Shown here in pieces: positions 4,544-16,221 of a DNA stretch of 39,002 nt. The stretch spans positions 1 through 39,002 of the forward strand of contig SBFS01000043.1 of the NCBI GenBank assembly GCA_006227825.1. Reading direction: 5' to 3'. This DNA is from Burkholderiales bacterium. Lineage in GTDB: Bacteria > Pseudomonadota > Gammaproteobacteria > Burkholderiales > Burkholderiaceae_C. Below the pieces are notes generated by a model, which searched no databases, had not been told where the DNA came from, and saw only the letters and a list, made by a program, of their open reading frames with translations. Position numbers and translations under genes: made by a program. Numbering within the stretch: position 1 is the first letter of the stretch; every line of letters begins with the position of its first letter.

Positions 4544-5092
4544 TCAGTAGTGGCGACCGCCCTTGTAGGCTGCGTGGGTGCGCGCCTGCAGGCGCCCGAC
4601 GCGCTCGATGGCGGCGGCCGTGCGGCTGACCTGGGCGTGGGTGATGCACAGTCCGAGCGCGTCGGCCGCGTCCTTGCCGGGCAGGCCGGGCAGCTGCAGC
4701 AGGCGGCGCACCATCTCCTGTATCTGGGGTTTGGTGGCCCGCCCGTGGCCGGCCACCGCCTTCTTGAGCTGCAGGGCCGTGTACTCGGCCACCGGCAGCC
4801 CGCTGGCCACGAGCGCGGTCAGGCAGCTGCCACGGGCCTGCCCCAGCAGCAGCGTCGCCTGCGGATTGACGTTCACGAACACGATCTCGCAAACGGCCAC
4901 GGTCGGCTGGTAGCGCGAGACCACCTCGGTGATGCCGTCGAACAGCACCTTCAGGCGTTCGGGCAGCAGGGCGCCGTCCCTGGGACTGGTGCGGATGGTC
5001 CCGCTGGCGACGTAGTGCATGCGCGGTCCGTCGGTGTCGATGACGCCAAAGCCCGCGCACTGGAGTCCCGGATCGATGCCAAGAATGCGCAT
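4544..5092 (-). CDS. ruvC: Crossover junction endodeoxyribonuclease RuvC
   Basis: [34 protein letters not shown]; start set at the MRILGIDPG methionine. Confidence 0.96.
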
Positions 5093-13401: not shown

Positions 13402-14862
13402 ATGATCGCGCGCGAACCCACCCTGGCCCGACTGGCCATCGCCGAGCAATGCCTGCTCGAGCCCTACGGACTGAACCCCGCCCTGCTGCGCCGGGCCCTG
13501 GGCGAGATCCTCTCGCACGGCGTGGACGACGCGGACCTGTACTTCCAGACGACCCGCAGCGAGGGCTGGAGCCTGGAGGAAGGCATCGTCAAGACCGGCA
13601 GCTTCAGCATTGACCAGGGCGTGGGTGTGCGCGCGGTCAGCGGCGAGAAGACCGCCTTTGCCTACTCGGACGACCTGTCCTGGAGTTCCCTGCAGGATGC
13701 CGCCCACACGGTGCGGACGATTTCGGGCCTGGGGCAGAGCCGGCGCGTGCGTGTGCCGGCCGCCAGGGTGTCGCGCTCGCGCTCCCTGTACCCCGGCATC
13801 GACCCCATCGGTTCGCTCGACAGCCAGACCAAGGTGGCCCTGCTCGAGAAGGTGGAGCGGCTGGCCAAGGCGGCCGACCCGCGCATCGTCCAGGTCATGG
13901 CCGGCCTGGCGGCCGAGCACGACGTGGTGCTGGTGGCGCGCGCCGATGGCACCCTGGCGGCCGACGTGCGGCCGCTGGTGCGGCTGTCGGTCACCGTCAT
14001 CGCCGAGCACAAGGGGCGCCGCGAGGTCGGTTCGTCCGGCGGGGGGGGCCGCTTCGGTCTTGCCTATTTCGACGACGCGATGGTTCAGACCTACGTCGGC
14101 GAGGCGGTCTCGGCGGCCCTGACCAACCTCGAGGCGCGTCCGGCGCCGGCGGGCGAGATGACCGTGGTGCTCGGACCGGGTTGGCCGGGGGTGCTGCTGC
14201 ACGAAGCCGTCGGGCACGGACTCGAGGGCGACTTCAACCGCAAGGGCTCCAGCGCCTTTGCCGGCCGCATCGGCCAGCGTGTCGCCGCCCGGGGCGTGAC
14301 GGTGCTGGACGACGGGACCATCGCCGACCGGCGGGGCTCGCTCAACGTGGATGACGAAGGGCACGCGACGCAGAAGAACGTGCTGATCGAGGACGGCATC
14401 CTGCGCGGCTACATCCAGGACACCCTCAACGCCCGCCTGATGGGCGTGCAGCCGACCGGCAACGGCCGGCGCGAGAGCTACGCCCATCTGCCGATGCCGC
14501 GCATGACCAACACCTACATGCTGGGCGGCGAACACGCGCCCGAAGAGATCGTCGCCAGCATCAGGAGGGGCCTGTACGCCACCAATTTCGGTGGCGGGCA
14601 GGTCGACATCACCAGCGGCAAGTTCGTCTTCTCCGCCAGCCAGGCCTGGTGGGTCGAGAACGGCCGCATCCAGTACCCGGTCAAGGGCGCGACCATCATC
14701 GGCAACGGCCCCGATGCGCTGACCCGGGTCGGCATGATCGGCAACGACCTGAAGCTCGACAGCGGCGTCGGCACCTGCGGCAAGGAGGGCCAGAGTGTCC
14801 CGGTGGGCGTTGGCCAGCCGACCCTGCGGATCGACGGCCTGACCGTGGGTGGCACGGCCTGA
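13402..14862 (+). CDS. tldD: Metalloprotease TldD
   Basis: HEAVGHGLEGDFNRKGSSAFAGRIGQRVA, GKFVFSASQAWWVENG, GTCGKEGQSVPVGVGQPTLRID; start at MIAREPTLARLAIAEQ. Confidence 0.96.
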   Translation: MIAREPTLARLAIAEQCLLEPYGLNPALLRRALGEILSHGVDDADLYFQTTRSEGWSLEEGIVKTGSFSIDQGVGVRAVSGEKTAFAYSDDLSWSSLQDAAHTVRTISGLGQSRRVRVPAARVSRSRSLYPGIDPIGSLDSQTKVALLEKVERLAKAADPRIVQVMAGLAAEHDVVLVARADGTLAADVRPLVRLSVTVIAEHKGRREVGSSGGGGRFGLAYFDDAMVQTYVGEAVSAALTNLEARPAPAGEMTVVLGPGWPGVLLHEAVGHGLEGDFNRKGSSAFAGRIGQRVAARGVTVLDDGTIADRRGSLNVDDEGHATQKNVLIEDGILRGYIQDTLNARLMGVQPTGNGRRESYAHLPMPRMTNTYMLGGEHAPEEIVASIRRGLYATNFGGGQVDITSGKFVFSASQAWWVENGRIQYPVKGATIIGNGPDALTRVGMIGNDLKLDSGVGTCGKEGQSVPVGVGQPTLRIDGLTVGGTA

Positions 14863-14899
14863 CGACGGCTGCGTAAGACTGCTGTCATGTCGTCTGTGC

Positions 14900-14905
14900 T
14901 ACATT
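14900..14905 (+). promoter_or_regulatory. Candidate -10 element (TACATT) for the aroG leader transcript
   Basis: TACATT ends 8 nt before the leader-peptide ATG; no clear -35 and no Shine-Dalgarno. Confidence 0.45.
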
Positions 14906-14913
14906 CGCGACTT

Positions 14914-14988
14914 ATGCGCAAGCCCGTCGCCTTCTTTTTTGGCTACTTTTGGTTCTCTGTCCCCGGCGGACGAGAGGCGAGGCTGTAG
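14914..14988 (+). CDS. Aromatic leader peptide upstream of aroG (24 aa, MRKPVAFFFGYFWFSVPGGREARL)
   Basis: Read directly: atg cgc aag ccc gtc gcc ttc ttt ttt ggc tac ttt tgg ttc tct gtc ccc ggc gga cga gag gcg agg ctg tag. Seven of eight consecutive codons are aromatic (FFFGYFWF); a terminator and aroG follow. Too short for the ORF track. Confidence 0.85.
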   Translation: MRKPVAFFFGYFWFSVPGGREARL

Positions 14989-15006
14989 TCGCATCACCAG
15001 ATCTCG

Positions 15007-15041
15007 AAAAACCGCCGGCGCCACAAGCCCGGCGGTTTTTT
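15007..15041 (+). terminator. Rho-independent terminator in the aroG leader
   Basis: aaaaaCCGCCGG-cgccacaagc-CCGGCGGtttttt: 7 G/C pairs, A/U extension, U tract; 52 nt before the aroG ATG. Confidence 0.9.
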
Positions 15042-15093: not shown

Positions 15094-16221
15094 ATGAACG
15101 CCAAAGCCGTCCCCGCCAGCAGCGATGCCTGGCATGCCCGTCCCGTCGACAAGACCAGCGAAACCGACGACGAACGCATCAAGGACATCACCGTGCTGCC
15201 GCCTCCCGAGCATCTGATCCGCTTCTTCCCCATCGGCGGCACGCCGGTGGAGGCCCTGATCGGGCAGACCCGCCAGCGCATCCACCGCATCCTGCACGGC
15301 CAGGACGACCGCCTGCTGGTCATCATCGGGCCCTGCTCCATCCACGACCCGGCCGCTGCCCTGGACTACGCACGCCGGCTGCTGCCGCTGCGGCAGAAGT
15401 ACGCCGACACGCTGGAGATCGTCATGCGGGTCTACTTCGAGAAGCCGCGCACCACGGTGGGCTGGAAGGGGTTGATCAACGATCCCTATCTGGATGGCAG
15501 CTTCCGCATCGACGAGGGCCTGCGCATGGCGCGCCAGTTGCTGATCGAGATCAATCGCCTGGGCCTGCCGGCGGGCAGCGAGTTCCTCGACGTCATCTCC
15601 CCTCAGTACATCGGCGATCTCATTGCCTGGGGTGCCATCGGTGCCCGCACGACAGAGAGCCAGGTCCACCGCGAACTGGCCTCGGGCCTGTCGGCGCCGA
15701 TCGGCTTCAAGAACGGCACCGACGGCAACATCCGGATCGCCACCGACGCCATCCAGGCTGCCGCCCGCGGACACCACTTCCTGTCCGTGCACAAGAACGG
15801 TCAGGTGGCCATCGTGCAGACCAAGGGCAACAAGGACTGCCATGTGATCCTGCGGGGCGGCAAGACGCCCAACTACGACGCGCAGCATGTGGCCGCAGCG
15901 GTCCAGGAACTGGAGGCGGCCAAGCTGCCGCCCCGCCTGATGGTCGACTGCAGCCATGCCAACAGCAGCAAGCAGCACGAGAAGCAGCTGGATGTGGCAC
16001 GCGACATCGCCGGACAGATCGCCTCGGGTTCGCGCAGCATCTTCGGCGTGATGATCGAGAGCCACATCGAGGCCGGTGCCCAGAAGTTCACCCCGGGCAA
16101 GGACGATGTGTCCCGCCTGGAGTACGGCAAGAGCATCACCGATGCCTGCCTGGGCTGGAGCGATTCGTTGCAGGCGCTGGACATGCTGGCGCAGTCGGTC
16201 GGTCAGCGCCGCCGGGGCTGA
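15094..16221 (+). CDS. aroG: 3-deoxy-7-phosphoheptulonate (DAHP) synthase, AroG/AroF/AroH class
   Basis: VIIGPCSIHDPAAALDYARRL, RVYFEKPRTTVGWKGLINDPYLDGSF, MVDCSHANSSK; AGGAG Shine-Dalgarno at 15083-15087. Confidence 0.97.
   Translation: MNAKAVPASSDAWHARPVDKTSETDDERIKDITVLPPPEHLIRFFPIGGTPVEALIGQTRQRIHRILHGQDDRLLVIIGPCSIHDPAAALDYARRLLPLRQKYADTLEIVMRVYFEKPRTTVGWKGLINDPYLDGSFRIDEGLRMARQLLIEINRLGLPAGSEFLDVISPQYIGDLIAWGAIGARTTESQVHRELASGLSAPIGFKNGTDGNIRIATDAIQAAARGHHFLSVHKNGQVAIVQTKGNKDCHVILRGGKTPNYDAQHVAAAVQELEAAKLPPRLMVDCSHANSSKQHEKQLDVARDIAGQIASGSRSIFGVMIESHIEAGAQKFTPGKDDVSRLEYGKSITDACLGWSDSLQALDMLAQSVGQRRRG

Follow-up and report, generated by a model that had tools for sequence, protein, structure and literature searches.

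In Escherichia coli the first step of the common aromatic pathway, that of 3-deoxy-7-phosphoheptulonate (DAHP) synthase, is controlled through TyrR/TrpR repression. In branched-chain leaders such as ilvL of ilvGMEDA, a single peptide combines the codons of several amino acids that a shared pathway makes as its end products. A DAHP-synthase gene under attenuation has a precedent: the aroR-aroF system of Corynebacterium glutamicum is a known attenuator (Neshat et al. 2014, as cited in PMC11802643; first listed in PMC4046766), and its AroR leader (Phe-Tyr-Phe) is described in PMC11802643 as responding to Phe and not to Tyr. In the same species, ilvBNC has a leader without a ribosome site, according to a reference in PMC4046766. 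The trpL leader mRNA (rnTrpL) of Sinorhizobium meliloti begins with the start codon (ATG) of its leader ORF and is thus leaderless (PMC7298713). Finally, attenuators were predicted in Vibrio before aroA(Y)-tyrA (Merino database, as tabulated in PMC1173090).

For the Betaproteobacteria, the open-access literature searched yielded no description of an aroG leader attenuator (an earlier listing elsewhere is possible); the main text of the Burkholderia cenocepacia start-site paper does not mention the aroG leader. The attenuator presented here is apparently undescribed. It lies in a 39,002-nt stretch of DNA from a Burkholderiales bacterium (contig SBFS01000043.1, hereafter the window), and we consider it very probable that this aroG leader is a ribosome-mediated transcription attenuator. 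Its features are the following:

14895-14905, + strand: extended -10 promoter element TGTGCTACATT, with the hexamer TACATT at 14900-14905
14914-14988, + strand: leader peptide ORF, MRKPVAFFFGYFWFSVPGGREARL, 24 codons plus TAG, without Shine-Dalgarno (SD) sequence and probably leaderless
14921-14931, + strand: segment 1, possible 5' arm of an anti-antiterminator, pairing weakly supported, with about 14976-14984
14932-14955, + strand: sensor run, codons F F F G Y F W F
14963-14975, + strand: segment 2, 5' arm of the antiterminator, CCGGCGG-A-CGAGA, inside the leader ORF and a copy of the terminator 3' arm
15002-15018, + strand: segment 3, 3' arm of the antiterminator, UCUCG-AAAAA-CCGCCGG, shared with the terminator 5' arm
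15008-15041, + strand: intrinsic terminator hairpin (3:4) and U-run
15094-16221, + strand: aroG, DAHP synthase, the controlled gene, with an AGGAG-type ribosome site just upstream

Seven of the eight codons of the sensor run are aromatic (F5, Y1, W1). Besides the leader, the 39 kb window contains no ORF of up to 60 codons with even 5 aromatics per 10 codons; 60 dinucleotide shuffles of the window gave a mean of 0.2 ORFs with at least 5 aromatics per 10 codons and none with at least 6, so that the run is not a product of chance. The 24-codon aromatic ORF had been claimed by a first-pass annotation of the window and is read there directly; the same annotation overlooked the extended -10 box and the probable leaderless start. 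Of the 39 leaders of the window's clade, 38 have a TGN-TANNNT-type box, in most cases TGC-TACATT, that ends 6-8 nt short of the ATG. Only one of 61 leaders overall has an SD 4-mer near the ATG, and in the genome from which the window comes the combination TGTGCTACATT-N6-8-ATG occurs a single time, at the aroG leader. Because of this extended -10 box 6-8 nt before the ATG and of the missing SD sequence, the leader mRNA of the window's clade is probably leaderless; by its promoter spacing, transcription in the window would start at about 14911-14914. The Burkholderia- and Massilia-type leaders have instead TTGNCA/TATAAA-like promoters roughly 30 nt upstream. A generic sigma-70 scan of the region returned nothing, which is explained by the lack of a good -35 element.

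The leader ORF is followed by a terminator stem, AAAACCGCCGG..CCGGCGGUUUU (15008-15039), of -20.7 kcal/mol and then by a U-run; a strong terminator was found after 61 of the 63 leaders tested. A generic terminator scan of the region found nothing because it limits loop size. Rfam gave no relevant match at gathering or permissive thresholds, and its Phe_leader and Trp_leader models gave none even at E<=5. Segment 2 is placed just 3' of the aromatic run. The terminator predicted by the first-pass annotation (15007-15041) is real, and the antiterminator that it had drawn between 14963-14975 and 15002-15018 is present as written and covaries in relatives; its observation that 14963-14969 copies the terminator 3' arm also held, and segment 2 can pair with the terminator 5' arm. 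In both helices 94% of the cells are paired, with 15 double changes for the terminator (3.5 in shuffles) and 12 for the antiterminator (4.2 in shuffles), a comparison that sequence relatedness can inflate. The covariation signal was lost when the partner arm was slid by 1-3 columns. A compensatory example is the change from CCGGCGG/CCGCCGG in Comamonadaceae to CUGGCGG/CCGCCAG in Burkholderia. A second antiterminator helix, formed in the window by CGAGA and UCUCG, paired less well once partners were swapped (p=0.0003). In the window's clade the observed pairing was not reached in any of 20,000 permutations, and in the other clade the advantage of the own partner was not significant by the same partner-swap permutation. 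The GGCGG core of the antiterminator is read in frame 0, as Gly-Gly, in 29 leaders; another 29 have it in frame 2, where it gives for example Ala-Asp, Ala-Val or Ala-Ala. Being kept in two reading frames, it is selected for RNA pairing and not for peptide sequence. The 1:2 stem, also part of the first-pass scheme, exists in the window as an extended duplex of -22.3 kcal/mol; relatives support this anti-antiterminator pairing only weakly (permutation p=0.005 overall, 0.02 in clade A, that of the window, and 0.13 in clade B).

What the sequence shows is the ORF, the spacing of its promoter, two folds that compete and are conserved and covarying, and an exclusive association with aroG. From this we infer that ribosomes stall, that transcription terminates in vivo, that translation is leaderless and that Phe, Tyr and Trp each evoke a response, according to the following scheme. 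RNA polymerase would start from the extended -10 promoter, at or a few nt from the leader AUG, and a ribosome would load at once on the leaderless, SD-less mRNA. If charged tRNA-Phe, tRNA-Tyr or tRNA-Trp were scarce, the ribosome would stall in FFFGYFWF; segment 2 (CCGGCGGACGAGA), left free, would pair with segment 3 (UCUCG-CCGCCGG), the 3:4 terminator would be blocked and aroG would be transcribed. If all three charged tRNAs were plentiful, the ribosome would cross segment 2 up to the stop codon and 3:4 would form; transcription would then end near 15041, with release of an RNA of ~130 nt.

The scheme was simulated by folding a transcript that stops just short of the terminator 3' arm, with the region under the ribosome blocked; the ribosome footprint is an assumption. 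With a stall at the first aromatic codons, the mean antiterminator probability was 0.93 (above 0.5 in 59 of 61 leaders); it fell to 0.53 when no ribosome was present and to 0.40 when one sat at the stop codon. For the window itself, stalls at the aromatic codons gave 0.77-1.00, except at the last one (Phe), where segment 2 is masked and the value was 0.00; the ribosome-free RNA gave 0.32, and a ribosome at the stop codon 0.79 (core). There lies the weak point of the model: a ribosome halted right on the stop codon leaves some of segment 2 uncovered and removes only the outer helix, and the remaining 7-bp antiterminator core would then have to lose to the terminator. Equilibrium folding of the full-length leader was rejected as a test of the states, the terminator winning in nearly all stalled ones; it follows that the switch must be kinetic, i.e. 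a matter of timing. Kinetic switching is generally assumed for attenuators.

An aromatic leader of 16-30 codons was found upstream of about 60 of 80 aroG relatives from named genomes, mostly Burkholderiales: in Comamonadaceae, in Burkholderia/Caballeronia/Paraburkholderia (MSAKFYFYFFWHLRPLADREG), in Massilia/Rugamonas/Janthinobacterium, in one Cupriavidus and in a MAG labelled Bordetella. A covariance model (R1) was built from 47 leaders and run on 150 Burkholderiales genomes with a cut-off of E<=1e-9. It gave 34 full-length matches, one per genome; the 30 that were fetched all lie directly upstream of aroG, and 29 of them carry the leader ORF by the ORF filter. The alignment proposed with the first-pass annotation was borne out across the order: the frame from start to stop, the aromatic run, the terminator and the 2:3 antiterminator are all kept, and the stems covary. 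A leader general to the class was rejected, since a search of a class-wide sample gave true matches outside the order in only 2 genomes of one family (again at aroG) and the other families of the class had a leader at 1 of 29 aroG upstream regions.

A few loci stand apart. Two aroG copies in Cupriavidus (L035, L039) and three in Polynucleobacter (L031-L033), 76-78% identical to that of the window, have no detectable aromatic leader, which indicates that the attenuator was lost or never gained in some lineages. Four MAGs labelled Planctomycetota, Verrucomicrobiia, Gemmataceae and Anaerolineae (L047, L048, L050, L075) have an aroG 64-71% identical to the betaproteobacterial gene, and the L075 copy is preceded by an aromatic leader, MSRYFSFFSWYGYFAAGQVERAVVRPRDV, and a TGTGCTACAAT box; these are either misbinned contigs or cases of horizontal transfer.

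The product of the controlled gene is assigned as DAHP synthase by TIGR00034 (532 bits). Within the window's genus, the leader is present at every window-type aroG with usable upstream sequence, except in one MAG where the leader start is missing. At locus L107 (genome G004), leader body and terminator are kept, start codon and promoter are missing and an in-frame stop occupies the ATG position, which points either to a genuine loss or to a chimeric assembly of this incomplete genome. The possibility that both aroG paralogues carry the leader was rejected: none was found among the second-paralogue upstream regions scanned in the genus. By this distribution, the attenuator controls only one of the two aroG paralogues there; the attenuation of aroG in the lineage put forward by the first-pass annotation agrees with the conserved leader and stems, and has to be narrowed to that paralogue. 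As to repressors, TrpR was not found in 20 genomes (the window's own and relatives), the E. coli control being positive. The window's own genome may encode a TyrR-type regulator, judging from a TyrR-type HTH (PF18024, 66.8 bits) at G000:C184:4084-4227. No such HTH was above the cut-off in 19 relatives, and the regulator is either lineage-specific or an assembly contamination.

Which amino acids are sensed can be approached through the runs themselves. Among the 57 distinct ones, Phe and Tyr are present in all and Trp in 42, with means per run of 4.3 Phe, 1.7 Tyr and 0.75 Trp. The natural reading of the window's run is that its leader would sense all three aminoacyl-tRNAs. The presence of a codon does not prove a response, as C. 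glutamicum AroR, with its Phe-Tyr-Phe, is described as answering to Phe and not to Tyr (PMC11802643). On the same model the attenuator could effectively sense Phe only, or Phe and Tyr, the single Trp and Tyr codons being passengers. The dominance of Phe in the runs and the lack of Trp in about a quarter of the distinct leaders (15 of 57) point this way, as does L141 (genome G098), where a Phe-only version, MNTLSAQFFFTFPTALAAGID, is found upstream of aroG, which suggests that the sensing spectrum shifts between lineages. Against it stand the presence of Tyr in every distinct leader and of Trp in 42 of them, although Trp has a single codon; YFWF, moreover, is frequent in the window's clade. We regard a sensor of Phe only, or of Phe and Tyr, as possible but rather unlikely.

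Two other explanations concern the hairpin and its mode of action. On the strand of the leader, the tldD gene stops at 14862, and TldD is encoded upstream of the leader in 54 of 92 loci, so that the hairpin might merely terminate tldD and the aromatic ORF be incidental. But the leader persists in the other 38 loci, where TldD was not found upstream, which refutes a tldD terminator as sole explanation; as the leader also has its own promoter element, an antiterminator arm covarying with the terminator and an aromatic run beyond chance, we give this explanation hardly any credence. Control could also be translational or post-transcriptional, with stalling acting on the translation of aroG or on RNA stability, or with a trans effect of the RNA or peptide that is released. 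A leaderless mRNA of ~130 nt would indeed be released, and action in trans is documented for rnTrpL/peTrpL in S. meliloti (PMC7298713). This reading is improbable given the strong terminator and U-run that separate leader and aroG, and an antiterminator that competes with the terminator and not with the aroG ribosome site.

Transcription attenuation being the preferred reading, the question arises whether its leaderless design is particular to aroG. Across the genus, TGTGCTACATT-N6-8-ATG marks the aroG leader plus, in three genomes, a second start. The two of these second starts that were read (L181, L182) open short Leu-rich leaders, MSNFSISLLLDVRHGQVW and MKQVSFSLLLGVRHGQVW, followed by a terminator and then leuA. 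With a similar start (the extended -10 box TGTGNTACATT, 6-8 nt before the ATG), Leu-rich leaders at leuA were found in 6 of the 11 members of the genus. One of them is the window's own genome, where MNRAMLLLLTDHPHGQAE lies on G000:C30 about 167 nt upstream of leuA (at 4805, L195); the other loci are L187, L188, L189, L192 and L197. The leuA leader is a probable second leaderless attenuator in the genus, and because of it the design has probably been used more than once. We give roughly even chances to a broader reading: a pan-aromatic leaderless attenuator, in which one peptide would integrate the charging of tRNA-Phe, tRNA-Tyr and tRNA-Trp and set entry into the shikimate pathway across Burkholderiales. 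Given the leuA leader in a genus that lacks TrpR of the E. coli type, it would belong to a lineage-wide TGTGNTACATT-N6-8-ATG leaderless set.

The aroG leader allows one to predict how carbon flow into all aromatic amino acids is gated in many Betaproteobacteria, among them Burkholderia, Cupriavidus, Variovorax and Hydrogenophaga. It would provide a compact natural sensor of the three aromatic amino acids, of use in metabolic engineering, and the leaders with and without Trp form a natural series for studying the evolution of sensing specificity. To the known attenuators the aroG leader adds a probable leaderless one, in which transcription and translation starts nearly coincide.

Compared with the systems described so far, the aroG leader resembles C. 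glutamicum aroR-aroF, a likeness of function drawn from the papers, in that an aromatic-codon leader peptide would direct ribosome-mediated attenuation of a DAHP-synthase gene; it differs by its 7 aromatics in 8 codons, Trp included (Phe-Tyr-Phe only in the actinobacterium), and by its occurrence in Betaproteobacteria. With E. coli pheL-pheA and trpL-trpE it shares the leader peptide, the competing 2:3 and 3:4 hairpins and the intrinsic terminator. Unlike them, it targets the first step of the common pathway, has a mixed Phe/Tyr/Trp run, lacks an SD sequence and matches no Rfam model. The leaderless mRNA, predicted here from promoter spacing only, recalls trpL of S. meliloti, an alphaproteobacterium, whereas that leader senses Trp and controls trpE(G). 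As in ilvL of ilvGMEDA, one peptide contains codons of several end products, here aromatic and not branched-chain. The Vibrio aroA(Y)-tyrA attenuator is likewise predicted before a DAHP-synthase gene but differs in lineage and operon, the table giving no details of a leader peptide. What makes the aroG attenuator distinctive is the combination of codons for all three aromatics, its breadth and its probable leaderless design.
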